Shown: positions 7,215 through 57,931, counted from the first letter of the stretch. The stretch is 63,373 nt of DNA from Deltaproteobacteria bacterium (GCA_030690165.1 JAUYHF010000007.1:195420-258792); one strand, 5' to 3'. Made by a program: numbers and translations. The notes: a model not told the origin generated them from the letters alone.

Positions 7215-7344
7215 ATTATAGTAAGCGCTAAAAATAAATAGACATCGTAGCTCAAGGCTTTAGCCTTGAAAGTCTTGAGAAACCTCAAACCTGAAGGTTT
7301 GAGCTACAGAAGAATGTCAACTTATTTATGCCGTTCACTATAGT
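7215..7344. repeat. MITE/BIME-like element with inverted ends and two REP-type hairpins
   Basis: The outer 31-nt ends (7215-7245 and 7314-7344) are imperfect inverted repeats sharing ATAGT and AAATAA...GACAT. Inside lie two hairpins, CAAGGCT/AGCCTTG and CTCAAACCT/AGGTTTGAG. Each begins with GTAG when read from its own outer side (7247 inward and 7307 inward). Two hairpins with outward GTAG feet match a BIME arrangement. The related pair at 57884-57931 shows that this is a dispersed family. The rest of spacer 7084-7505 holds the aspS terminator and a weak TTGACA-like promoter near 7395. Confidence 0.75.
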
Positions 7345-11064: not shown

Positions 11065-11949
11065 TTAAAAGTGCACTTTCTTTATATCTTCGGCCCTGAC
11101 CTGTTGTTCCCCCACAAGTTTGTTTCGACACCAGAACCGGATTTTGGCCATATGATGTTTGAGGTCAAAACTGACCCTCAATTCAACTTCGTCACGAGGG
11201 GAGACGCCTGAGACACTGAACTTAAGGGTCTGCCATGAGAGCTTCCGATAGGAATCAGCCACCCGTTTTATTCTATAGCAGAAGATATCATCAAGGGTTT
11301 CATAGGGTCTGGGAATAGTAAACCTACGAAAGAGACTCTTCTTCTCCTGTAAGGCTTTCTCATAGCGAACAGAAGGGATTTCATTGGTTGTGGAGTGAAC
11401 CCTATGGTTATTATAGCGATGGATTTCTTCATGCAACACGACCCGCGCCTCCTCTATCCCTGTGATATTCTCCCGCACACACGTTCGCACGACATGATCC
11501 TGCAACCACTGGTAGGGGCGCTCCACTTTGCCCTTGGCCGCAGGTGACAGGGCATACACCACTTCGACATTCAAGTCCTTCAGCACCTCCTTCCATTGCA
11601 CCACAGCTTCTTCCTCTCCCCCGTGGCTCTTTTGCCAGAGGCTATCTCTCCTTTCCACAAACCGAAAGATAGAATGATTATCAACATAGTACTTTAACGG
11701 ACAGCCAAAGCTTATGGCCACTGTCTTGGCAGCGATGATATGAGTCCAACTTGTTTCCTTGTCCCAGAGGTCTCCATACAAAATCCTGCGGCTATGATCA
11801 TCTATAGTTGTAACCAGATACCATTTGGTCTGGGCAGATGGAGACCATAAATGAAATGATGTGTCATGTTGAAGAAGTTCTCCCACATAGTTTGTCAGGA
11901 CCTCACGGTCATGAGCCTTCCGAAAGGGCTTTGCCTGATAAAATCCGTT
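11065..11949 (-). CDS. IS transposase, catalytic part (orfB), reached by -1 frameshift
   Basis: This is the rve-type DDE core: Asp in QHDTSFHLWSP, Asp in YYVDNHSIF, and Glu in AAKGKVERPYQWLQD, followed by the C-terminal beta region (FSVSGVSPRDEVELRV). It resembles IS481/ISNCY-type enzymes. There is no plausible independent start before the first catalytic Asp except an internal GTG or ATG near 11886. The frame continues smoothly into orfA if the ribosome slips -1 on A_AAA_AAA. All three catalytic acids are intact, so the element may be active. Confidence 0.82.
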   Translation of the reverse strand, partial: NGFYQAKPFRKAHDREVLTNYVGELLQHDTSFHLWSPSAQTKWYLVTTIDDHSRRILYGDLWDKETSWTHIIAAKTVAISFGCPLKYYVDNHSIFRFVERRDSLWQKSHGGEEEAVVQWKEVLKDLNVEVVYALSPAAKGKVERPYQWLQDHVVRTCVRENITGIEEARVVLHEEIHRYNNHRVHSTTNEIPSVRYEKALQEKKSLFRRFTIPRPYETLDDIFCYRIKRVADSYRKLSWQTLKFSVSGVSPRDEVELRVSFDLKHHMAKIRFWCRNKLVGEQQVRAEDIKKVHF

Positions 11950-12326
11950 TTTTTTGCCCGGGCAATGATCGTGGGCAATGAGACGACAACCTTGTGCCTC
12001 TTTTTCAATAGTTCCTTCAAGTAACTGTAATTGTAGAATTTGACCGGATTGCTTTTGTCATGAATAATCCCGGCTTCTCTTTCAAGTTCCATGATAATCA
12101 TGGCATCTGATTTGGCATCTATCTTTCGGGGTGGAACTGCTCTTTTGTAATCCAAAGAAAAGCCGTCTGGATTTTCTCGATAGACTTTTAATAACTTGAA
12201 AAACTGACGCCTTCGGATTTTAAGAAGTCCTAATGCCTGCTCCACTTCAATCTCCTGAGATAAATACCTCTCAAAAATCTCCTTCACTTCTTCTGCTGAA
12301 AACAGCTTTCGTAAGTGTTTGCCCAT
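11895..12326 (-). CDS. IS transposase, DNA-binding part (orfA)
   Basis: The start at 12326 (MGKHLRKLFSAEEV) is preferred over the longer frame because AAGGAGG lies just upstream. The 143 residues contain a helix-turn-helix (ALGLLKIRRRQFFKLLKVY) and a second DNA-binding segment (YSYLKELLKKRHKVVVSLPT). The zero frame ends shortly after an A8 tract (T8 at 11948-11955 on the plus strand), where a -1 slip continues into the catalytic frame as KKNGFYQAKPFRKAHDREV. Confidence 0.8.
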   Translation of the reverse strand: MGKHLRKLFSAEEVKEIFERYLSQEIEVEQALGLLKIRRRQFFKLLKVYRENPDGFSLDYKRAVPPRKIDAKSDAMIIMELEREAGIIHDKSNPVKFYNYSYLKELLKKRHKVVVSLPTIIARAKKTDFIRQSPFGRLMTVRS

Positions 12327-12441
12327 TTTATCCTCCTTGGCTTGATAGATGTGAGAAAATCCTGAAAAAGACACAATAGTGCACTTTTAATCTTTAAACC
12401 AGTGCACTTTTAATTTTTAAATGACACTGTAATAAAAAAGC

Positions 12442-14235: not shown

Positions 14236-14446
14236 AGACGCATTGAAAAGACTTGAAGAGATAGTGGATGCCCTTGAGAAAGGGGATATTCCTTTGGAGA
14301 AGTCTTTGAAAATCTTTGAGGAAGGGGTAAGGCTCTCAAGGCTTTGCAATAAGATGCTGGATAAGGCTGAGAAAAAGGTTGAGATACTTATGCGCAGCGA
14401 AAATGGTGAACTTGAGGCAAGGCCGTTTGAACCGGAAGAAAAATGA
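14216..14446 (+). CDS. xseB: Exodeoxyribonuclease VII small subunit
   Basis: The 76-residue helical subunit shows the full family pattern: FEDALKRLEEIVDALEKGD, PLEKSLKIFEEGVRLSRLC and LDKAEKKVEIL. Several XseB copies coat the XseA coiled coil. It starts inside xseA and ends in an ATGA overlap with ispA. Confidence 0.96.
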   Translation: MAEIKFEDALKRLEEIVDALEKGDIPLEKSLKIFEEGVRLSRLCNKMLDKAEKKVEILMRSENGELEARPFEPEEK

Positions 14447-15336
14447 TTTTGGATATTGACAGATACCTGAAGGAAAGAGGAGATATTGTAAATAAAGCAA
14501 TTGACAGTCTTTTGCCAAAAGAGGATGAATTTCCGCAAAGGCTGCACAAGGCAATGAGATACAGTATTTTTGCAGGCGGAAAACGGCTCCGGCCTATCCT
14601 TGTTATAGCCGCAGCAGAGGTTTTCGGAAAAACCGCCGGTAGTGTTATTAACATAGCCTGCGCCGTTGAAATGATACACACATATTCATTGATACACGAT
14701 GATCTCCCTGCTATGGATAATGACGACCTGAGGCGGGGAATGCCTACATGCCACAAGGTGTTTGGAGAGGCATTGGCAATACTTGCAGGCGATGCGCTTC
14801 TGACAAAGGCATTTCAGATAATGAGCAAACCATTAGCAGTAGAGACGCATAATTATGCGTCTCTACAAACTATTCATGAGATAGCAAAGGCAGCCGGCTC
14901 TACAGGCATGGTTGGCGGTCAGGTTGTGGATATTGAGTCAGAAGGCAAAGATATTGAGTTTCCTGTTCTTGAATATACTCACATACACAAGACAGGTGAA
15001 TTGATCCTTGCAAGCTGCAAGGCCGGAGCCATTATGGCAAATGCAGACGACAGAGGACTTGAGGCAATAACAAGATATGGTGAGGCTGTGGGCCTTGCCT
15101 TTCAGATAGCCGATGATATACTTGATATAGAGGGGACTAAAGAAGATGTGGGAAAGAATGTTGGAGGAGATGTAAAAAAGGGCAAGGCCACATATCCGTC
15201 TATTCTCGGTATAGAAGAGTCAAAAAAGAGGGCAGGGGAGTTGGCATCTCTTGCAATAGCATCGCTTAAAGATTTTGATGAAAAGGCAGAACCGCTGCGG
15301 GCCATTGCAAGATATATAGTGGAAAGGAGAAAGTGA
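14443..15336 (+). CDS. ispA: Polyprenyl (farnesyl/geranylgeranyl) diphosphate synthase
   Basis: IspA condenses isopentenyl diphosphate with allylic diphosphates. The first aspartate motif is HDDLPAMDNDD (residue about 85), followed by the RRG of DLRRGMPTCHK; the second is FQIADDILDIEGT (about 224). GGKRLRP is the substrate lysine/arginine segment. At 297 residues the size is normal. A 28-bp perfect palindrome at 14839-14866 encodes VETHNYASLQ in a loop between helices. The enzyme appears intact, so the insertion seems tolerated. It is cotranscribed with xseB (4-bp overlap) and precedes dxs, grouping isoprenoid genes. Confidence 0.95.
   Translation: MILDIDRYLKERGDIVNKAIDSLLPKEDEFPQRLHKAMRYSIFAGGKRLRPILVIAAAEVFGKTAGSVINIACAVEMIHTYSLIHDDLPAMDNDDLRRGMPTCHKVFGEALAILAGDALLTKAFQIMSKPLAVETHNYASLQTIHEIAKAAGSTGMVGGQVVDIESEGKDIEFPVLEYTHIHKTGELILASCKAGAIMANADDRGLEAITRYGEAVGLAFQIADDILDIEGTKEDVGKNVGGDVKKGKATYPSILGIEESKKRAGELASLAIASLKDFDEKAEPLRAIARYIVERRK
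14839..14866. repeat. 28-bp perfect palindrome inside ispA
   Basis: GTAGAGACGCATAA followed by its exact reverse complement, with GTAG at both outer ends. It follows the same consensus as the palindrome inside the RAYT gene at 25944-25971. Confidence 0.93.
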
Positions 15337-20085: not shown

Positions 20086-21090
20086 ATGAACAGAAAGGCT
20101 GTTGCCCTGCTTTCCGGCGGGTTGGACTCAACTCTGGCAGTAAAGGTGATGCTGGAACAGGGGATTGAAATTTGTGCCCTTAATTTTACATCCACATTCT
20201 GCACATGCAGCTGCAGGGGAAGCGTTTGCAGCAATGAGGCAGCAAGGGTTGCTAACGAATTTGACGTTCCCATAAAAGTCCTTCAAAAGGGATTAGATTA
20301 CATAGAGATTGTAAGAAATCCAAAGTATGGCTACGGACAGGGTATAAACCCTTGCGTGGACTGCCGCATATATATGCACAGGCTTGCAAAGAAATATATG
20401 GAAGAGATTGGCGCGTCATTTATAGTAACCGGCGAGGTGCTGGGTCAGAGGCCAATGAGTCAGAGAAGGGATGCGTTTGAGACAATAGAAAGAGAGAGCG
20501 GTCTTGAGGGGCTTATTCTAAGGCCCCTTTGCGCAAAGCACCTTGAACCTACCATTCCGGAGAAGGTCGGCATAGTAAACCGGGAAAAACTTCTGGATAT
20601 GGGCGGCCGTTCACGGAGGCCGCAGATAGCCCTTGCAGAGGAATTGGATATTCAGAATTACCCTTGCCCATCAGGCGGCTGTCTCCTGACAGACAAGATA
20701 TTTTCAAAGAGGGTAAAGGATTTGCTGGATAATAAGGAAGAAGTCACGATGAAGGATGTGCTTCTTCTTAAAGCAGGCAGGCATTTCAGGCTGAATAAGG
20801 ATGTTAAGATTGTTATCGGCAGGGATGAGGCTGATAATAAAAAGATCAAAAACCTCATTCAGGCAGACGATATCATGATAGAGCCGCTGGATTTTGCCGG
20901 ACCAACAGGACTTATATGCGGCTTATCTAAAAATGGAACGCACTTTATCGCAGGCAGGATGATTTTAAGATACGCCGGAACAAAGGCCGAGGGGAAGAGA
21001 ACGTTAAAACTTTCTAAAAATAGCGAGACAACTACATTTGAGGTTGATGCGCCAGTTGAGGAAGAAGTGTTAAAAGGGATGATGATATGA
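20086..21090 (+). CDS. PP-loop ATPase, ThiI/MnmA-like tRNA thiolation family
   Basis: The start at 20086 (MNRKAVALLSGGLDSTLAVK) is preferred to an upstream in-frame ATG at 20026 because GGAGG lies upstream and the PP-loop strand begins at once. SGGLDS is the pyrophosphatase loop. Further cysteines CTCSCRGSVC and NPCVDCR and the sequence ITGEVLGQRPMSQ are shared with sulfur-inserting tRNA modification enzymes. The C-terminal 100 residues (LKAGRHFRLNKDVKIVIGRDEADN) look like the NFACT-R/DUF814-type RNA-binding module. It most likely adds sulfur to a tRNA base; which base is unknown. larE overlaps its stop codon. Confidence 0.75.
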   Translation: MNRKAVALLSGGLDSTLAVKVMLEQGIEICALNFTSTFCTCSCRGSVCSNEAARVANEFDVPIKVLQKGLDYIEIVRNPKYGYGQGINPCVDCRIYMHRLAKKYMEEIGASFIVTGEVLGQRPMSQRRDAFETIERESGLEGLILRPLCAKHLEPTIPEKVGIVNREKLLDMGGRSRRPQIALAEELDIQNYPCPSGGCLLTDKIFSKRVKDLLDNKEEVTMKDVLLLKAGRHFRLNKDVKIVIGRDEADNKKIKNLIQADDIMIEPLDFAGPTGLICGLSKNGTHFIAGRMILRYAGTKAEGKRTLKLSKNSETTTFEVDAPVEEEVLKGMMI

Positions 21091-21968
21091 AATTACAGAA
21101 GTCAGGAGTCAGGGGTCAGGGGTCAGAAAAACAGACGCAAGACTTATCACTGATTACTCAAAAAAAATTTGAGCATCTGAAAACTATCCTCCGTGATATG
21201 GGCTCTGTGCTTGTGGCCTTTTCAGGCGGAGTAGATTCAACCTTTCTTTTAAAAAGTGCCTTTGATGCCTTGGGCGGCAAGGCTGCGGCGCTTACAGCCC
21301 TATCTCCAACATACCCTGAAAGGGAATTTCAGTATGCAAAGGGCCTTGCCCGGCAGATTGGCGCAAGGCATATAATAGTAGAATCTAATGAACTCCTTAT
21401 ACCAAACTTTGCTGATAATACGGATAAGAGATGTTACTATTGCAAGAGCGAGCTTTTTGAGATATGCAATGAAAAGGCAAAAGAGCTTGGGCTTGCATCC
21501 GTAGCAGACGGAAGCAATATTGATGATTTGGGAGATTATAGGCCAGGGAGAGAGGCTGCAAAAAAACTTGGCGTGAGAAGTCCTCTTGTGGAGGCAGGTC
21601 TGTCAAAGCCTGAAATAAGACAATTAAGCCGTATTATTGGCCTTGAGACATGGCAAAAGCCGTCCTTCGCCTGCCTCTCATCCAGATTTCCCTATGGAAC
21701 AAAGATAACAGAAGAAAGACTTGATAAGATTGAGAGATGCGAAGAGATGCTTCGCAATTTAGGTTTTTCTCAATTCCGGGTGAGATACCATAATGAAATT
21801 GCCAGAATTGAGGCGCCGCCTGCTGAGATAAACAGATTCTTGGATGAAGGCGTCAGGGATGTAATTGTTAAGGGTTTTAAAGAGCAGGGATTTACTTATA
21901 TAACGCTTGACCTTCAGGGTTACAGGACAGGGAGCATGAATGAAGGGATGTTAAAAAAGATGGGATGA
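21087..21968 (+). CDS. larE: LarE-family ATP-dependent sulfur transferase, three-cysteine type
   Basis: LarE makes the thiocarboxylates of the nickel-pincer cofactor precursor. The PP-loop is FSGGVDSTFL (about residue 45), followed by ADGSNIDDLGDYRPGR and FACLSSRFPYGTKIT. Two cysteines in DKRCYYCKSE plus the one in FACLSS give the three-cysteine pattern reported for [4Fe-4S]-dependent LarE enzymes, rather than the single sacrificial cysteine type. The first 20 residues (KSGVRGQGSEKQ) are encoded by a GTCAGG-word repeat and are not conserved, so the true start may lie further in. larA, larB and larC are not in the window. Confidence 0.88.
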   Translation: MKLQKSGVRGQGSEKQTQDLSLITQKKFEHLKTILRDMGSVLVAFSGGVDSTFLLKSAFDALGGKAAALTALSPTYPEREFQYAKGLARQIGARHIIVESNELLIPNFADNTDKRCYYCKSELFEICNEKAKELGLASVADGSNIDDLGDYRPGREAAKKLGVRSPLVEAGLSKPEIRQLSRIIGLETWQKPSFACLSSRFPYGTKITEERLDKIERCEEMLRNLGFSQFRVRYHNEIARIEAPPAEINRFLDEGVRDVIVKGFKEQGFTYITLDLQGYRTGSMNEGMLKKMG

Positions 21969-22022
21969 TGACACCTATCGCGGGTTCAAATTCGCTTCCA
22001 TGAAATGTATTTAAAACAGCAA

Positions 22023-22051
22023 TTGTTCTTATTTATGCTTTCTGTTATAGT
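22023..22051 (+). promoter_or_regulatory. Putative promoter of the TumA/TumE-like pair
   Basis: TTGTTC (22023-22028), 17 bp, TATAGT (22046-22051), placed just before the SD of the first gene. Confidence 0.5.
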
Positions 22052-22083
22052 GTAAACAAAAAATGTTCTTGGAGGTGCAGGCC

Positions 22084-22359
22084 ATGACTGTAGTGGATAT
22101 AGTAGCAAAAGAATTTCATGTAAGCCCCAAGGAGATACTCAAAGATAGTTTAAAAACCTATCTCCATCAAAGGTTGTCAAAGGTGGAGGCGAATATATTC
22201 ATCATTGCAAAGAAATACGGCGTTAAGGATGTTTTTGAGCTGGATTCAAAGGTAAAAAAGGGGATAGTAAATGAAAAGGACGCCTACGATGACTATTTCG
22301 CCCTTGATAACCTTGAGTCTGAAAAGGAGAAGATTAAGAAACTCATGGAGAAGGTCTGA
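22084..22359 (+). CDS. TumA-like antitoxin
   Basis: The start at 22084 (MTVVDIVAKEF) is set by GGAGGT eight bases upstream, not the ATG at 22063, which overlaps the SD. The 91-residue, highly charged helical protein has VSPKEILKDSLKTYLHQRL and VEANIFIIAKKYGVKDVFELD, followed by a DYFALDNLESEKEKI tail. This is the usual look of the small protein encoded directly before TumE-type toxins. It probably binds and silences the next gene product. Family assignment is from memory of the pattern and the pairing. Confidence 0.58.
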   Translation: MTVVDIVAKEFHVSPKEILKDSLKTYLHQRLSKVEANIFIIAKKYGVKDVFELDSKVKKGIVNEKDAYDDYFALDNLESEKEKIKKLMEKV

Positions 22360-22763
22360 TGGCTTCTATTGACGATCTCCGAAGAATTGCCGAAGTAGAA
22401 TTTGCAGACATAGTAAATGATGCCGCAGTCATTGACCATAAGGCGAGAATATTCCTATCTCACGGCGGTTTTGTTGATGTAAACCTTTCCCAAAGACTCC
22501 CCGATAAATTCGGCTTCCACTGGGAAGTGACGGACGCAGCCGGGACCATCTTCCGGTATGACAACTTTCCCGATAAAAACTGGCGGACAGTTTCCACATA
22601 TCCCTGCCACTTTCATAACGGTTCTCAGGAAAATGTTGAGGCATCTCCTTTCCCCCCGACTGTTATTGAGGGTTTTCGCTCATTTATGGAATTTGTGCGG
22701 AGCAAGATAAAGAAACATGCGCGGGTTGTCTCTAAGAAAACCGGCGCGCATAAGCCTTCTTGA
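22359..22763 (+). CDS. TumE-like toxin (DUF6516-type)
   Basis: The start overlaps the antitoxin stop by one base (TGATG), so translation is coupled. Residues 25-115 show the TumE pattern: a buried strand pair, FGFHWEVTDAAGTIFRYDNFPDK, STYPCHFHNGSQENVEASPFPPT, then a helix FRSFMEFVRSK. The biochemical activity of this family is not settled. The last 20 residues are basic and may not be part of the fold. Confidence 0.58.
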   Translation: MASIDDLRRIAEVEFADIVNDAAVIDHKARIFLSHGGFVDVNLSQRLPDKFGFHWEVTDAAGTIFRYDNFPDKNWRTVSTYPCHFHNGSQENVEASPFPPTVIEGFRSFMEFVRSKIKKHARVVSKKTGAHKPS

Positions 22764-22812
22764 TTTTTTTAAAAACGTTGCAAGAAAAATGCCTCTTGGA
22801 GAGTCTTGTATG

Positions 22813-22838
22813 GTAGGGGTAGACCTATGTGTCTGCCC
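22813..22838. repeat. REP-like hairpin starting GTAGGGG
   Basis: GTAGGGGTAGACC, a short loop, then TGTCTGCCC. It is nearly the same as the hairpin just upstream of the RAYT gene (25639-25663), in opposite orientation. Confidence 0.75.
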
Positions 22839-22924
22839 GATTGTAGGAGCAGGTTGCAAATCTGTTCTCACAAGAGGTAGCGCGAAAAAGAGAAAAAATA
22901 AATATTGGGGATTATATCTTATTT

Positions 22925-24226
22925 ATGCCAAAATTTAACAACAAAGAAGAATATCTGAAATGGAAGCAAGAGAAATCAAGGCAAGGGGATAATAACGAGC
23001 CTGTTGAAACAGATAATAAGCGCTATCCTAAAAAAGTATTTTATATTTTTATTCTGTTCCTCTTGTTGGTAATTTTATACTCCCTCGGAAACAAAATAGG
23101 TAATGTATTAAAGCAAAATCCAAAAGATGTTCCTAATCAAGAATTGCATCCAGCGCAAGAATTAACACGCTATCAAACGAAACAAGAGCCTTCTGCCTCA
23201 ACCTTAATTAACCAGACAAAACCAGAGACTCCTCCAGCCAAGCTGACTTTTCCTGAAATAGTTAAACAGGCAAAGAAAGCTGTTGTTACTATTAAAACAT
23301 CAAAAGGTCTTGGCTCTGGGTTTCTCATATCACCTTCTGGAAAAATTGTCACAAACACGCATGTGGTTGGTAAAGATCAAACGGTAGAAGTTGTGTTTAT
23401 ATCAGGAATTTCGGAACGGGCAAGTGTTGTCATGAAAGGGACAATACCCTTGGATATTGCTATTCTTGAGATATATGGCCACAGGTCTGACTATGACTAC
23501 TTACAATTAGGCGATTCAAGTGACTGTGCCGAAGGTACAGATGTGATTGCTATTGGTTCTCCCATAGGATTGGCTGGGACTGCAACAAAAGGCATAATCA
23601 GTAATTGTAATCGTGTTAGCTCAGATGTAAATTATATACAAACAGATGCTTCTATTAATTCAGGAAATAGCGGAGGCCCTTTAATAGATAGCGCTACTGG
23701 TAAAGTTATTGGAGTGAATACCATAAAAATGAGCGGCTTGGGATTGGAAGGCTTGGGATTTGCTATCGAAATAAATATGGTCAAAGACTTTATGTCATGG
23801 AAACTAACTTCTCTTGAAGAAAAGTTTAGAAGAGAAAGGGAAGAGGAAATTAAAAAATTAGCAAGTGATTTCGAACTAATTATTATAATAGAATTTAATA
23901 AGTATATACAAGCGAAGATGCGCGCAGAGTTTGATAGAATTAAACAACTTGGCATAAAGCTTGGTAAAAATAGTAGAGAAATAATTGAGGCATTTAATAG
24001 TCAAGCTGTTGAACATGGGTGGAATAATTCGGAACGCTTGCAGAAGTATTCATTGAACTCGTTAGTGATAGAATCAAGAAAGTATGGATGGGATCGTTTG
24101 AGGCCACCTTCTGAGTTTGATTCATGGGAAAAGTGGTTTGAAGCAATGGCAGAAGGGGTAATTGACAGGGAGATACCTGTTGAGAAAGTTGTGGAGATTA
24201 TTAAACGCCATTTTTCTTATGCATAA
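22925..24226 (+). CDS. Membrane-anchored trypsin-like serine protease
   Basis: The 433-residue protein has one membrane helix at about 37-56 (KKVFYIFILFLLLVILYSLG). A HtrA-like protease domain at about 115-290 carries the triad His in TNTHVVG, Asp in PLDIAIL and Ser in SGNSGGPL. No PDZ domain follows. Instead there is a charged, helical C-terminal region (about 295-433), with EEKFRREREEEIKKL coiled coil. The topology suggests a periplasmic protease on a tether. It sits between a toxin-antitoxin pair and a HEPN-like gene, a context seen for stress or defence genes, but no specific substrate can be named. Confidence 0.85.
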   Translation: MPKFNNKEEYLKWKQEKSRQGDNNEPVETDNKRYPKKVFYIFILFLLLVILYSLGNKIGNVLKQNPKDVPNQELHPAQELTRYQTKQEPSASTLINQTKPETPPAKLTFPEIVKQAKKAVVTIKTSKGLGSGFLISPSGKIVTNTHVVGKDQTVEVVFISGISERASVVMKGTIPLDIAILEIYGHRSDYDYLQLGDSSDCAEGTDVIAIGSPIGLAGTATKGIISNCNRVSSDVNYIQTDASINSGNSGGPLIDSATGKVIGVNTIKMSGLGLEGLGFAIEINMVKDFMSWKLTSLEEKFRREREEEIKKLASDFELIIIIEFNKYIQAKMRAEFDRIKQLGIKLGKNSREIIEAFNSQAVEHGWNNSERLQKYSLNSLVIESRKYGWDRLRPPSEFDSWEKWFEAMAEGVIDREIPVEKVVEIIKRHFSYA

Positions 24227-24291
24227 CATATAGAAACCATCAAAACCTGACCTAAATCTGATGCATAACTGCCCATTTTGTATTTAATTGG

Positions 24292-25515
24292 ATGAGAAAA
24301 ATGACTGACAAAAACAAAATTAGTTCCATAGCGCCGCTTAATTACCAATATCCATCGGTGTCAAAAGACAGCATACCAGCGGGTTTTAATAAACTGTTTC
24401 CGATTGATTATAAGAGTGAAGAAATTGAGGAATATGAAGTACTGTTTTTCCATCGTCTCATGAAAAAGAATTATGGCAACCCATCTGAGATAGAATTTGA
24501 AAAAGACTCTATCAAAAAAACAAAGGATGGACGGAGTATTTCTCTTGGTCGTGAATGGAAGTATTATATAAGAACACATTCTGGTGGTATTATTCAAGTT
24601 GGCACAGAAGATATTCATACTCGTCTGAAAACATGTCATGTGCTTCCAAGTAGTCAAAAAGAACCCAGCAGTATAATAATCCAAGAAGGTGAAAAATTTA
24701 TTAATGCCCTGCTAACAGAAGCTCGGAGGCAAAAAGACCAACTACTCAATATAAAAAAAGAGTTTGAAAGTGGTGATGAAAGAACAGGCCTTTTTCTATT
24801 AGATAATGTTTATCTAACCAACTATCAGCGTGCAGAATTAATGTTGGACTATGCTGAGGATAATGAGAAGGACGTTAATGAAGAATTTTTACGATATGAC
24901 CCGCGCTATCCGATGACTCCTGATAAACAGGCTCATCATGACAAGTTTATGCAAGCAGGAGGAATGTATTATGATGCATCAATCTTTTATTCTTTTATGG
25001 CATTAGAAGGTTTTGTTAACATTATCTATTATGCTTTTTTAAAAGATGAACTTCGGTCCGATTTTATTACCGATCAAAAATTAGATGAAAGATTAGATAT
25101 CGTCACAAAAATCTTACTAATGCCTTCCTTATGCGATGGTTTTAAGAGTAAACAAAAAGCAGCTTTTTTTAAAATTTTAAAAAAATTGAAAAACCACAGA
25201 AACTTCTTGTTTCATTCGAAGATTACTGATTCACTTAGAACGGTATGTTTTGTTGAAAGTGGATTCCTCTATAGTTGTAAGTTCAAGAAAGATTCAAACC
25301 CGTTATTCCCGGAACGTAAACAATACCCTCTTCTCGAAATAAATGCCCGCGCGATTAAAGTGATTGTAGAACATATAGTTAAAGAAATCCTTAACATGAT
25401 GCAGGATGAGCATAGAGCATTAGTTAAGAGTTTTGTTTTAAATGGCATGACAATACCATTTTGGCGGGATAAAAATGGAGTAATTAAATTGGGAATTATG
25501 AAAAATGTTGAATAG
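24292..25515 (+). CDS. Unknown protein with a possible HEPN-like segment
   Basis: I do not recognise a full-length family. The 407-residue protein has an alpha/beta N-terminus (1-120), a coiled middle and a helical region with MYYDASIFYSFMALEGFVNIIYYAF and KKLKNHRNFLFHSK. The latter fits R-x4-H (RNFLFH), the HEPN ribonuclease signature, and HRNFLFH has the usual hydrophobic spacing. It follows the protease gene by 65 bp in the same direction and they may be cotranscribed. AT-rich codon use matches the protease rather than the housekeeping genes, which suggests joint acquisition. Confidence 0.5.
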   Translation: MRKMTDKNKISSIAPLNYQYPSVSKDSIPAGFNKLFPIDYKSEEIEEYEVLFFHRLMKKNYGNPSEIEFEKDSIKKTKDGRSISLGREWKYYIRTHSGGIIQVGTEDIHTRLKTCHVLPSSQKEPSSIIIQEGEKFINALLTEARRQKDQLLNIKKEFESGDERTGLFLLDNVYLTNYQRAELMLDYAEDNEKDVNEEFLRYDPRYPMTPDKQAHHDKFMQAGGMYYDASIFYSFMALEGFVNIIYYAFLKDELRSDFITDQKLDERLDIVTKILLMPSLCDGFKSKQKAAFFKILKKLKNHRNFLFHSKITDSLRTVCFVESGFLYSCKFKKDSNPLFPERKQYPLLEINARAIKVIVEHIVKEILNMMQDEHRALVKSFVLNGMTIPFWRDKNGVIKLGIMKNVE

Positions 25516-25520
25516 AGTAA

Positions 25521-25569
25521 GTATGGTGGGCTACGCCCACCCTTTATCGGCGGGCACAGCCCGCCCTAC
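25521..25569. repeat. BIME-like pair of GTAG/GTAT-footed hairpins
   Basis: GTATGGTGGGC/GCCCACC is followed 7 bp later by a second hairpin GGCGGGC/GCCCGCC whose reverse strand starts GTAGGGCGGGC. Two head-out REP-like units flank a short TTTATC centre. Confidence 0.82.
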
Positions 25570-25638
25570 GCAATTATAAAATTTAACGGGAGGGGGGAGG
25601 GGGGGAGGGACACTTCCCGATTTAATTTAGGTTCGCAA

Positions 25639-25663
25639 GACAGACACGCAGGTTTGCCCCTAC
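25639..25663. repeat. REP-like hairpin directly upstream of the RAYT gene
   Basis: The reverse strand reads GTAGGGGCAAACC, CTGCGTG, TCTGTC. It ends 6 bp before the RAYT start codon, as expected for a REP close to its own RAYT. A run of G-rich sequence and GGGACACTTCCCG (25609-25621) precede it; the latter recurs at 28024. Confidence 0.75.
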
Positions 25664-25669
25664 AACACC

Positions 25670-26257
25670 ATGACCCAACTCAACCCCGACATCCATCATC
25701 GCCGTTCCATACGTCTGAAGAATTATGATTATTCCCGCGCAGGCGCGTATTTTGTTACTGTGTGCGTGCAAAATCGTGAATGTTTGTTCGGGGATATTGA
25801 CAACGGGGAAATGCGGTTGAATGAATTTGGGCGGGTTGTAGAAAACGAATGGTTGAAGACAAAGGACATCCGAGGTAACGTGAAATTGGATTATTACATC
25901 ATCATGCCGAACCATTTTCACGGAATTTTGGTAATCAATGATTGTAGGGGCGTATTGCAATACGCCCCTACCGCAAGTCGTAAATTCCGATCACCGTCAC
26001 AAACAATTGGCGCAATTGTCCGCGGTTTTAAATCCGCCATTACCAAACACATCAATGAAACCCGCAACAATCCGGGCTGTCCCGTCTGGCAGCGCAATTA
26101 TTATGAACACATTATCCGAAATGAAAAATCCATGAACAAAATACGTGAATACATAACCAAGAATCCATTAAATTGGACAACCGACATTGAACACCCCTGT
26201 AACAAAGGCAACAGAACAGCAGAGGAATATTACAAGCATATTGTGGAAAGGTTATGA
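25670..26257 (+). CDS. REP-associated tyrosine transposase (RAYT, Y1 family)
   Basis: The 195-residue enzyme has the single-domain Y1 HUH layout: RAGAYFVTVCVQNRECLFG, the metal-binding HUH motif in MPNHFHGIL (about residue 85), and the probable catalytic Tyr in WQRNYYEHIIRNE (about residue 145). RAYTs cut and join single-stranded REP hairpins next to a GTAG foot (shown for E. coli). Here REP-like GTAG hairpins lie on both sides, and a 28-bp GTAG palindrome is inside the gene itself (encoding CRGVLQYAPTAS) in the variable part before the last helix. The reading frame is intact, so the enzyme may be active. Confidence 0.93.
   Translation: MTQLNPDIHHRRSIRLKNYDYSRAGAYFVTVCVQNRECLFGDIDNGEMRLNEFGRVVENEWLKTKDIRGNVKLDYYIIMPNHFHGILVINDCRGVLQYAPTASRKFRSPSQTIGAIVRGFKSAITKHINETRNNPGCPVWQRNYYEHIIRNEKSMNKIREYITKNPLNWTTDIEHPCNKGNRTAEEYYKHIVERL
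25944..25971. repeat. 28-bp perfect palindrome inside the RAYT gene
   Basis: GTAGGGGCGTATTG followed by its exact reverse complement; GTAG at both outer ends. The copy in ispA shares GTAG-G-CG-AT positions. Confidence 0.93.
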
Positions 26258-26282
26258 CTGACAATTGCCGTAACGGCAGGAG

Positions 26283-27518
26283 TTACCTTATTCCACTATC
26301 TTTAAATCTTTTTAAAACATCCAGCAGATAATCAATATCCTTTTCAGTGTGGCTGGCATTTATCTGGAATCTTATCTCTTCGTCCCCTTTCGGAACTACA
26401 GGAAAATTCAGGCCTGTGGCCAGTATGCCGTTATCAAAGAGAAACCTTACCATTTCCGATGTCCTCTCGGTATCCCTCACCATCAGCGGAACGATAGGGT
26501 GTTCGCCGGGAATGGTCTCATACCCAAGCTGTTTCAGCCCTTCCCGCAAGCGCGCTGCAAGTCTTCTCAGCCTTTCGAGAAGCCTTATCCCTTCTGGACT
26601 CCCCAGTATTTCAAGGGACTTGATTGCCGCTGCTGCCTCAGCAGGGGTAATTGGGTTAGAATAGATATAAAAAGGCGCTGTTTCTCTGAGATAACTTATC
26701 ACCGTATTTGTTGAGACTATATAACCGCCGTTTACCCCCAGCGCTTTTCCAAGTGTTGCCACGAGAATATCCACTCTGGCATTGGTATGTTCTTCTGTGC
26801 CTCTTCCTGTTTTACCAAATGCGCCGACGCCATGAGAGTCATCAACAATAGTGATAATACCTTCTTCATATCCTGATTCATATCTCTTGCAGATTTCAAC
26901 AATCCTGTCTAAAGGCGCATAATCGCCCCTCATGCTGAAGATGCCGTCAGTTGCCACCACAACCCTTTTTGCAAGGCCTGTGTTTTCTTTGAGGATACGC
27001 TCCATATCTGTCATGTCAAGATGGAGATAGACCTCCTTTTTTGCAGGCCTGGAGAGCCTTATAGCATTGATAATGCAGTTATGGTTCAACCCATCGCTCA
27101 ACACGAGGGTCTTTTCAGTAATGAACTGGGGGAGTATTCCCATGACAGTTGAATATGCCGAGCTGAATATCATTGCAGCCTCTCTCCCGTGAAAGCCGGC
27201 AAGTCTTTTCTCAAGATTTATATGTGGTTCGTAGGTTCCGCTTATAAACCTGACAGCGCCAGGACCTGCGCCGAACTTTCTTGCGGCATCTTCCTCTGCC
27301 CTTATGACATTCTTATTTAAAGAGAGTCCCAGATATGAATTGGAGTTCATCTTTAAAAACTCTTTTTCTCCCTGTCCGGCGAGCAGACAGCGAGGGCCAA
27401 AGCCGTCCTTTGCCCCTGTTATGCCAGTGATGACCTTTTCCTTACCCTTCAAACTTCCTCTGGCCTTAAGATCATTCAGTTTTTCAGTCAGTATCTTTTC
27501 TATTTGTTTTAGAGACAT
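26283..27518 (-). CDS. kbl: Glycine C-acetyltransferase (2-amino-3-ketobutyrate CoA ligase)
   Basis: Kbl cleaves 2-amino-3-ketobutyrate with CoA to glycine and acetyl-CoA. The 411-residue protein is an alpha-oxoamine synthase: NSNSYLGLS, GTYEPHINLEKRLAGFHGREA, SDGLNHNCI, VDDSHGVGAFGKTGRG, and the PLP lysine in ATLGKALGVNGGY. The related BioF cannot be excluded from motifs alone, but the SDR-type threonine dehydrogenase gene nearby on the same strand (28506-29453) makes Kbl the better call. The two are separated by about 1 kb of toxin-antitoxin remnants, unlike the usual adjacent arrangement. Confidence 0.82.
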   Translation of the reverse strand: MSLKQIEKILTEKLNDLKARGSLKGKEKVITGITGAKDGFGPRCLLAGQGEKEFLKMNSNSYLGLSLNKNVIRAEEDAARKFGAGPGAVRFISGTYEPHINLEKRLAGFHGREAAMIFSSAYSTVMGILPQFITEKTLVLSDGLNHNCIINAIRLSRPAKKEVYLHLDMTDMERILKENTGLAKRVVVATDGIFSMRGDYAPLDRIVEICKRYESGYEEGIITIVDDSHGVGAFGKTGRGTEEHTNARVDILVATLGKALGVNGGYIVSTNTVISYLRETAPFYIYSNPITPAEAAAAIKSLEILGSPEGIRLLERLRRLAARLREGLKQLGYETIPGEHPIVPLMVRDTERTSEMVRFLFDNGILATGLNFPVVPKGDEEIRFQINASHTEKDIDYLLDVLKRFKDSGIR

Positions 27519-42032: not shown

Positions 42033-44849
42033 ATGCATCCAAGGGATAAAACCCTCCTTAATGATATAGCATATCTGAAGACAATCCTTTATCAGGCGCT
42101 TGAAGAGCAGGTTGGAAAAAGGCTCTTAAAGGTGATAGACGACCTGAGCAAAAAAAACATCCTGTCAAAAGATTGGTTTTACGACCCCCAGAAAGGCGCA
42201 AGAACGTCAGTATTATCCGATAAGCTATTTAAAACCATAAATAGGATTAGCATTAGTGAGACAGCCCGGATTATTCAGGCATATTCCATAAATTTTCAAC
42301 TTATCAATCTGGCAGAGGAAAATTTTGGCATGCAGGACAGAAGAAGGAAAGAGCGGCAAGGCCTGACGGTTTCCGGTTCCATAGAGGGATGTGTCAGGGA
42401 GTTCAGGGGAAACGGCGTTACCCCTGATGAGATACAGCTTCTTTTGAATAGGCTTTCCATCGCGCCTGTAATAACCGCCCATCCCACAGAGGCAAAGAGA
42501 AGAACTGTGCTGGAAAAGCACAGAAAGATATACCTTTCAATATTTAAAAAAGAAAATCCTATCTGGACAGACAGGGAAAGAGAGGCAATAAGGGAAGAGA
42601 TACTTGGAGAGGTGGAAAAGCTTTGGCAGACAGGTGATATAAGACTTGAAAGACCAAAGGTGAAAGAAGAGGTTTTAAACGGTATTTTTTACTTTAATAA
42701 GACATTCTTTGATGCGTTGCCAAGGATATACGATGAGCTTTGCCGCCAGCTCCAGAGATACTATCCTGGATATAAATTCTCTATTCCCCCGTCTTTATTA
42801 TTGTTTGGCAGTTGGGTGGGCGGCGACAGGGATGGTAATCCATTTGTAACCAGCGAGAAGACAAAATGGACATTGATTTCACACAAAGAATTAGTCATCG
42901 CCAAATACACGGAAATCATATCCCGGCTTATATCCAGCCTGAGCATATCCATGCAGTTTATACTGCCAGGCAAGGAATTCCTTGTATCCATAAAGGAAGA
43001 TGCAAATGCAATGGGAGCTGAGGGGCAAAGGATTATAGCAAGAAATCCTTATGAGCCATACAGACAAAGGCTTTCTCTTATCAGAAAGAAGCTTGAAAAT
43101 ACAAATGCAAATAAAGATGTGTTTTACAGAAATATAGAGGAGTTTATAGAGGATTTAAACATAATTAAAAGAAGCCTTAATGCCAACAAGGGGGGAAGGA
43201 TTGCAAGGCTTGAAATTCTTCCGCTTATAAGGCAGGCAGAGGCCTTTGGTTTTCATCTGGCAAAATTGGACATAAGACAGCATAGTGAAATCCATAGAAT
43301 GGCTGCGGCAGAGCTTCTGGAAAAAGCAGGCATTGTAACGGATATTCCCTTCTACCTTGCCCTGCCGGAACAGGACAAGGTAAAAATCCTCTCTGGAGAG
43401 CTTACATCTATAAGGTCTTTGGCGCCCGACTATGCGCGGTTATCTCGTGAAACAAAAGAGGTTCTGGATACATTTAAGGTAATTAAATATGCCCAGGATA
43501 AGATAAGCTGGGAAGGAGTAGGCTCCTACATTGTCAGCATGACGCACAATGCAAGCGATATCTTAACTGTAGGGCTTCTGGCAAAAGAGGCAGGGCTCTC
43601 TGGGATTAGTGATGATAATGAAATATTTAACAGGATAGACATAGTTCCGCTCTTTGAGACCATAGATGATTTAAGAAGGGCGCCTCAAATATTAATAGCG
43701 CTGTTTTCAAATCCTGCCTACAGGAGATACCTTGCAAAAAGGGATAATATTCAAGAGGTCATGCTTGGCTACTCAGATAGCTGCAAGGATGGCGGGATAT
43801 TAACCTCTGGTTGGGAGCTCTATCATGCCCAGAAGATAATTACAGAAGCGGCAGCGGAATATAAAATCAAACTAAAACTATTTCACGGAAGGGGAGGGAC
43901 GGTTGGCAGGGGCGGGGGGCCGACTCACAAGGCAATCCTGGCTCAGCCGCGGGGCACTGTCAATGGCCTTATAAAGATAACAGAACAGGGCGAGGTTATA
44001 TCTTCCAAATACGCAAACCTCGGCACAGCATTATATAATCTGAACCTCCTTGTGGCAGGGGTTATGGAGGCGACATTAAATAGTAAGCAGTCGGCAGGGG
44101 TAGGGTGGGCATTGCCCGCCAATCAGAAATCAAAAAAACAAGGAAAGGATTTTGAAGGTGCGTTTGAAGAGATATCAGGAATATCATACAGGTTATACAG
44201 AGGGCTAATTGACGGCCCTGATTTTTTAACATATTTTTATCAGGCAACCCCCATAGAAGAACTGGAACACCTGAAGATAGGCTCCAGGCCGACTTACAGA
44301 AAGGGGAAAGGCGGGGTTGAAGATATGAGGGCAATACCATGGGTTTTTAGCTGGAATCAAACGAGACATATCATACCGGGGTGGTATCCGTTTGGTTCCG
44401 GTCTAATGGCATTTATAGGAAATGACGCGGCGCGGGAAAGGCTTGTTCAGGAGATGTATGTGAGATGGCCTTTTTTTAATAATCTCGTGGATAACATCCA
44501 GATGGTCATTGCAAAATCCGACATGCATATTGCAAGGCTTTATTCAACTTTGGTAAAAGATAAAAAGATACGGGAAAAGATTTATAAAAAAATACATAAA
44601 GAATTTAAACTGACCGTAAAAATGATTTTAAAGATCACTGGACAGAAAAGGATACTGGACAATGACCCGTTGCTTCAGAGGTCAATAGCCATGAGAATGC
44701 CCAGCATATATCCGGTAAATTATATTCAGGTTGCGCTTTTAAGAAGGCTTCGGAGCGGACGAATGCAGGGTAGTGAAAGAGAAAAATCTATTGCAGCGCT
44801 CATGATGAGCATCAACTGTATTTCCGCTGGACTGAGAAATACAGGATAG
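42033..44849 (+). CDS. ppc: Phosphoenolpyruvate carboxylase
   Basis: Ppc adds bicarbonate to PEP to make oxaloacetate, replenishing the TCA cycle. At 938 residues it is near the usual bacterial length. Catalytic motifs are intact: VITAHPTEAKRRT (His-138 type), GSWVGGDRDGNPFV, MLGYSDSCKDGGILTSGW, FHGRGGTVGRGGGPTH and the C-terminal SIAALMMSINCISAGLRNTG (QN-TG end). A GTAG-footed palindrome at 44100-44120 encodes part of SAGVGWALPANQK, a loop that is variable in the family. Confidence 0.97.
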   Translation: MHPRDKTLLNDIAYLKTILYQALEEQVGKRLLKVIDDLSKKNILSKDWFYDPQKGARTSVLSDKLFKTINRISISETARIIQAYSINFQLINLAEENFGMQDRRRKERQGLTVSGSIEGCVREFRGNGVTPDEIQLLLNRLSIAPVITAHPTEAKRRTVLEKHRKIYLSIFKKENPIWTDREREAIREEILGEVEKLWQTGDIRLERPKVKEEVLNGIFYFNKTFFDALPRIYDELCRQLQRYYPGYKFSIPPSLLLFGSWVGGDRDGNPFVTSEKTKWTLISHKELVIAKYTEIISRLISSLSISMQFILPGKEFLVSIKEDANAMGAEGQRIIARNPYEPYRQRLSLIRKKLENTNANKDVFYRNIEEFIEDLNIIKRSLNANKGGRIARLEILPLIRQAEAFGFHLAKLDIRQHSEIHRMAAAELLEKAGIVTDIPFYLALPEQDKVKILSGELTSIRSLAPDYARLSRETKEVLDTFKVIKYAQDKISWEGVGSYIVSMTHNASDILTVGLLAKEAGLSGISDDNEIFNRIDIVPLFETIDDLRRAPQILIALFSNPAYRRYLAKRDNIQEVMLGYSDSCKDGGILTSGWELYHAQKIITEAAAEYKIKLKLFHGRGGTVGRGGGPTHKAILAQPRGTVNGLIKITEQGEVISSKYANLGTALYNLNLLVAGVMEATLNSKQSAGVGWALPANQKSKKQGKDFEGAFEEISGISYRLYRGLIDGPDFLTYFYQATPIEELEHLKIGSRPTYRKGKGGVEDMRAIPWVFSWNQTRHIIPGWYPFGSGLMAFIGNDAARERLVQEMYVRWPFFNNLVDNIQMVIAKSDMHIARLYSTLVKDKKIREKIYKKIHKEFKLTVKMILKITGQKRILDNDPLLQRSIAMRMPSIYPVNYIQVALLRRLRSGRMQGSEREKSIAALMMSINCISAGLRNTG
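44100..44120. repeat. REP-like hairpin inside ppc
   Basis: GTAGGGTGGGC, ATT, GCCCGCC: the same type as the hairpins at 25521-25569, in frame and without damage to the gene. Confidence 0.8.
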
Positions 44850-57877: not shown

Positions 57878-57883
57878 TAATTG

Positions 57884-57931
57884 CTCAAACCTAAAGGTTT
57901 GAGTTACAGTAACTCAAGGCTTTAGCCTTGA
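57884..57931. repeat. BIME-like hairpin pair between cysM and the JAMM gene
   Basis: CTCAAACCT/AGGTTTGAG and CTCAAGGCT/AGCCTTGA hairpins joined by TTACAGTAA. The words are the same as at 7247-7307, but the GTAA-type feet face inward. Confidence 0.85.

Follow-up and report, generated by a model that had tools for sequence, protein, structure and literature searches.

A RAYT gene (REP-associated tyrosine transposase) in the 63,373-nucleotide stretch of Deltaproteobacteria bacterium DNA analyzed here, called the window throughout, carries a perfect palindrome inside its own reading frame. We consider it probable that this is a stem-specific RAYT in which the helix following the HUH motif reads the inner stem of the target, and that the matching palindrome is kept in the gene as a cis-acting site. 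The position of the palindrome in the gene, its near-universality among homologs, the match between in-gene and flanking stems, the covariation of helix and stem, and the power of the helix to predict the stem are all established by computation.

The gene encodes a 195-amino acid protein with matches to NCBIfam NF047646 (REP-associated tyrosine transposase, E=4e-19) and to Y1_Tnp, and its translation contains the motifs MPNHFHG, WQRNYYEH, and YITKNP. The NF047646 match falls into two pieces, divided by an insertion between the HUH motif and the following helix, and this insertion is encoded by the 28-bp palindrome. An AlphaFold model of the protein (pLDDT 80.5, pTM 0.78) has as its best PDB match 4er8, a structure of the Escherichia coli RAYT in complex with a REP hairpin. 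The initial annotation of this DNA had described a RAYT with HUH and Tyr intact, and the ORF, its MPNHFHG motif, Y161, and the family and structural matches bear this out. By the residues present, the product is predicted to be a RAYT-type single-strand DNA HUH nuclease. The features of the gene are:

25670-26257, plus strand: RAYT gene of the Quentin subclass 2.4 type, 195 aa (ORF, NF047646, Y1_Tnp, AlphaFold model)
25913-25921, plus strand: HUH motif, residues H82-F83-H84 (from sequence; neither His varies among the 30 sequences of alignment A1)
25944-25971, no strand: perfect 28-bp palindrome GTAGGGGCGTATTGCAATACGCCCCTAC whose inner stem is GTATTG, with a GTAG foot on each strand; candidate cognate site of the window RAYT
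26000-26044, plus strand: codons 111-125, part of the putative DNA-binding helix (model helix 113-132), with exposed positions that covary with the inner six bases of the palindrome (covariation and AlphaFold model)
26150-26152, plus strand: predicted catalytic Tyr161 of YITKNP (from sequence; invariant in the same alignment)

The motifs that define subclass 2.4 (NH[IFV]H, WQ, and Y---NP) are present as NHFH, WQRNYYEH, and YITKNP, the last with K in place of N in the subclass consensus YIxNNP. An in-frame REP is inserted between HUH and Tyr, and it is a double-foot REP (GTAG ... CTAC). Flanking REPs of its own, which are common in subclass 2.4 but are not a sequence criterion, are absent at the window RAYT. 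The DHLH-type HUH and bulged REP of the E. coli type (subclass 2.2) are not found, the window having NHFH and a perfect palindrome, and the IS200/IS605 pattern is not seen, the gene being single-copy in its genome with no tnpB among the neighbors scanned. A RAYT of another subclass in the same genome (L008, G000:C45:9296-9760) has hairpins that recur in its N-terminus and in the loop between HUH and Tyr, and in-gene repeats may therefore not be unique to subclass 2.4. A further RAYT, L027 (G005:C82), is flanked by hairpins of the GTAGGGCAGGGCTTCAGCCCTGC type and has two of them within its reading frame, ahead of the HUH.

The palindrome at 25944-25971 lies between the HUH and the DNA-binding helix. 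The initial annotation had listed a hairpin at this position, and it is there, but its being inside the gene and a perfect palindrome with a foot at both ends had been missed. A search of the genome to which the window belongs found the exact palindrome once, in the gene. Two further matches, GTAAGGGCGTAATGCCTTACGCCCCTAC on contigs C9 and C19, are near copies. Judged by sequence, it is the likely partner of the window RAYT. Since the gene has no cognate flanking REP, the match between in-gene and flanking stems cannot be shown at this locus.

Strong GTAG-type hairpins (score at least 10) are above chance in the window, at four distinct sites versus 0-2 in dinucleotide shuffles. All of those listed in the initial annotation are present, including a BIME of two hairpins and a GTAG hairpin that ends 6 bp ahead of the RAYT, but they belong to several unrelated families:

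7247-7307, no strand: pair of CTCAAGGCT/CTCAAACCT hairpins; the family flanks a RAYT of the same genome (C8:4722, L004)
14839-14866, no strand: GTAGAGACGCATAATTATGCGTCTCTAC, double-foot palindrome, in frame within an ispA-like gene (14443-15336)
22813-22837, plus strand: GTAGGGGTAGACCTATGTGTCTGCC hairpin, AGACCT family
25521-25569, no strand: BIME, two GTAGGGYGGGC-family hairpins, one identical to a hairpin by RAYT L032 of G004
25639-25663, minus strand: GTAGGGGCAAACCTGCGTGTCTGTC hairpin, AGACCT family, 6 bp upstream of the RAYT ATG; not cognate by stem
44100-44120, plus strand: GTAGGGTGGGCATTGCCCGCC hairpin, same GTAGGGYGGGC family as the BIME
57883-57930 (end approximate), no strand: second pair, CTCAAACCT/CTCAAGGCT family, as the pair at 7247

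The hairpins at 22813 and 25639 form a family, GTAGGGGCARACCTNNGTGTCTGCC, with approximately five copies in the genome, and the AGACCT-family hairpin is the in-gene hairpin of L013, a RAYT of the same-genus genome G004 that is 48% identical to the window RAYT. The GTAGGGYGGGC family flanks the E. coli-type RAYTs L022 and L032 of the same-genus genomes G001 and G004, and the BIME was rejected as the REP of the window RAYT; an E. coli-type RAYT was not found in the window's own genome. The pairs at 7247 and 57884 match hairpins flanking L004. The BIME, the 25639 hairpin, and most of the distant hairpins thus appear to belong to other RAYTs of this or same-genus genomes. The initial annotation had proposed a REP mobility system in which the hairpins could be one set read by this enzyme. 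The RAYT/REP setting stands, but the single set does not, and no evidence was found that the window RAYT moves the hairpins around it. The one-to-one pairing of stem families with other RAYTs, which had been named as grounds for rejecting that proposal, is largely what was found (L004, L013, L022, and L032). The 14839 palindrome, for which no RAYT partner was found, is the sole window hairpin left unassigned. That palindrome (14839-14866; L262-L267) sits in a linker of the ispA-like protein; in genomes of the same genus and family (G002, G004, and G005), the REP in that linker is an unrelated one (GTAGGGTGGGCTTTGCCCACC), and three order-level relatives have none there.

The RAYT lies in an AT-rich block of about 4.35 kb (21951-26299), with GC down to 0.34, that is absent from the same-genus genome G001; there, the gene at 26283 lies immediately next to the larE-like gene (window 21087-21968). 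The block contains a TumE-type toxin gene and its probable partner, an HtrA-like protease, a 407-aa ORF with no family matches, and the RAYT; other relatives differ at this site. Elsewhere in the window, at 11065-12374, two adjacent minus-strand ORFs resemble by eye the halves of a disrupted DDE-type transposase.

Two sets of homologs were assembled. Scanning genome contigs yielded 80 homologs spread over many phyla; 79 sequences with clear motifs, the window RAYT and L013 among them, form the first set, and a profile search of 395 genomes from the window's phylum gave 89 sequences. A palindrome is present in the same loop in 76 of 79 sequences of the first set and 81 of 89 of the second, or 157 of 168 together. 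Codon-shuffled loops contain one in only 2-9 of 168 cases, and 3 of 79 ORFs have one in their upstream half; chance origin of the in-gene palindrome was rejected on these controls. Palindromes also occur in the N-terminal (10 cases) and C-terminal (11 cases) parts of the listed ORFs. Viral contigs gave only four relatives. Across homologs the outer bases GTAGGGGC are near-fixed and the inner six vary widely. The stems GTATGG, GTATCG, GTATTG, and GACCGG are each seen in two codon phases, so that GTATNG, for example, is read as RGVLQYAPT in one phase and as VGAYCNTPLQ in another; the third phase would place TAG in frame and is unoccupied for even-length palindromes. One stem in two reading frames indicates that what is conserved is the DNA and not the peptide. 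REP insertion into RAYTs of subclass 2.4 is already described by Quentin et al. (2018; PMC6006769), and we found no report of in-gene/flank matching, stem-helix covariation, or frame independence for this subclass in the portion of the literature available to us.

Among 70 loci having a flanking palindrome of the same type, 58 have a flanking stem that matches the in-gene stem at 5/6 or more, and mean identity is 0.86, compared with 0.43 after shuffling (largest shuffled value 0.50); an earlier version of the comparison comprised 30 loci. A flank-gene-flank arrangement of one stem is found in the directly scanned genomes at G262:C6, G315:C35, and G353:C35, and the reversed control pattern gave no matches in those genomes. 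The 2.7-Mb genome G161, which has several RAYTs, contains 63 palindromes with a double foot, representing at least five stems, and is a good test case for assigning stems to RAYTs.

In 67 training sequences, the more alike the helix regions are, the more alike are the stems (r=0.62, partial 0.60, at most 0.11 in permutations); the values for the remaining protein are 0.23 and -0.01. Along the protein, the signal is restricted to the stretch from about -14 to +4 relative to F120. No correlation with the stem is seen for the segment immediately upstream of the palindrome, and closeness along the gene alone therefore does not explain the covariation. The strongest positions, -9/-8, -6/-5, -2/-1, and +2/+3, form one face of the helix, and -7, -4, and -3 between them are low. 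In the window RAYT, the key residues are G114 (-6), A115 (-5), R118 (-2), G119 (-1), and S122 (+2). Stems were then predicted from the nearest neighbor by segment for 48 independent sequences, each less than 80% identical to any training sequence. The helix gave the exact stem in 24 of 48, versus 10 and 2 of 48 for other regions, with many test stems belonging to families already in training and helices of new families being predicted poorly. Mean identity of the predicted stems is 0.79 for the helix, and 0.58, 0.46, and 0.40 for other segments (random, 0.39). The helix also predicts the stems of flanking REPs, which lie outside the core gene (0.78 versus 0.50-0.56), and this makes proximity within the gene an unlikely cause. 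The stem is largely predictable from one protein helix, and this suggests a natural recognition code.

Individual residue-base rules, for which the amino acid/base pairs were chosen after seeing the data and control columns likewise scanned for their best pair, include -2 Gly with C5 (29/30), -2 Ala with G5 (17/19), -5 Thr with A1 (14/15), -6 Pro with A1 (16/20), the pair AG with CGG (15/18), and G[RYW] with TCA (7/7). Counted as tree-independent pairs on the best tree obtained for the rest of the protein, which is based on about 110 columns and is weakly supported, the ratios are 15:0 for -2 Gly/C5, 9:0 for -2 Ala/G5, 10:0 for -5 Thr/A1, and 12:1 for -6 Pro/A1. Helix position -2 scores 3.83, versus a top score of 2.67 among 76 control columns. 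Well-supported branches leave only 2-5 independent pairs, mostly in the expected direction and not significant. The E. coli RAYT contacts a REP stem base through K82 of helix alpha3 (PMC8266576). Equivalence of K82 to helix position -2 was not upheld, the alignment having put K82 at +2; K82 could correspond to either -2 or +2 of the window helix, a difference of one helical turn, and we claim only the same helix and face.

By analogy with the E. coli RAYT, we infer that the covarying face reads the inner stem. Specificity would be located in the helix that follows the HUH loop, with the face formed by the four strong position pairs reading the inner six base pairs of the GTAGGGGC-N6 palindrome, and the conserved part of the protein would read the GTAG foot, as in the E. 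coli RAYT. The covariation would then reflect direct contact. The matching palindrome stands in the loop directly before this helix, and often beside the gene too. In its own genome, the window enzyme would be GTATTG-specific, with its sole full site in the gene and the two near copies elsewhere, the surrounding hairpins being those of other RAYTs. The in-gene copy would be kept as a cis-acting site through which the RAYT would have its own gene as substrate or target, and a role in self-mobilization, exchange of the recognition module, or autoregulation seems the most likely reason for a target inside the gene.

A possible but clearly less probable account is passive self-insertion, in which the loop is tolerant, an active RAYT scatters its own REP, and the in-gene copy has no function. 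The insert is placed away from the active site, with little impact expected, according to Quentin et al. (2018; PMC6006769), palindromes are found at either end of the ORFs and in the ispA-like gene, and stem turnover is frequent, with 73 changes versus 90 shuffled. However, neutral inserts should often be missing or decayed, and 157 of 168 are in the same loop and still palindromic. Passive insertion also still requires stem-specific enzymes, and is a rival only as to the reason for keeping the copy. Improbable in our estimation is linkage only, whereby recombination moves the palindrome and the adjacent helix as a cassette and gives a correlation without recognition. The spacing of helix and palindrome is typically 9-20 codons and the remaining protein has a different history, as such a cassette would have it, but the equally close upstream segment is uncorrelated, flanking REPs outside the gene are predicted as well, and the signal follows one helix face.

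The initial annotation had left a choice between an enzyme lax in stem sequence and several RAYT subfamilies in the genome. A single RAYT that reads mainly the GTAG foot and handles any stem would resemble the E. coli RAYT, which is heavily GTAG-dependent and tolerates many stem changes (PMC8266576), but the stem families found here go with RAYTs of their own, and only the in-gene stem fits the helix class of the window RAYT. We regard the lax enzyme as very improbable; several subfamilies, each specific for its own stem, is the alternative that gained support.

The stem-specific reading bears on how RAYTs choose among REPs and on residue-by-residue co-evolution of enzyme and REP; in the recognition study PMC8266576, three enzyme-REP pairs were examined, with a structure for one. 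A probable target inside the gene pairs enzyme and target without guessing. A testable code follows, in which, for example, Gly or Ala at -2 goes with C or G, respectively, at stem position 5, as does a way of assigning orphan genome hairpins to their source RAYT, as applied here to the window. More broadly, we give even weight for and against the proposition that group 2.4 RAYTs are self-labeled, with the cognate site kept in the enzyme's own frame by selection on DNA, beside the reading helix, so that matched enzyme-target pairs in many genomes would give a residue-to-base code usable for re-targeting.

Subclass 2.4 of TnpAREP/RAYT corresponds to Bertels group 4, and as described by Quentin et al. 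(2018; PMC6006769) its members share with the window RAYT a length of approximately 195 aa, NHFH, WQ, a variable insert between HUH and Tyr, an in-frame REP in the gene, double-foot REPs, and a patchy spread over phyla. Unlike what is usual there, the hairpins flanking the window gene come from other families (GTAGGGYGGGC and AGACCT). The E. coli RayT/TnpAREP (subclass 2.2, 4er8) has the same fold, the GTAG foot, an alpha3 helix that contacts the REP stem and, by its residues, the same chemistry, but differs in its imperfect, bulged REPs, in its C-terminal tail, and in having no in-gene REP. Intragenic GTAG/CGTC REPs and the Rickettsia RPE elements (PMC3733652) are likewise in-frame palindromes in protein genes; those elements occupy unrelated host genes, whereas the palindrome described here has a fixed place in a gene whose own product is its probable reader.
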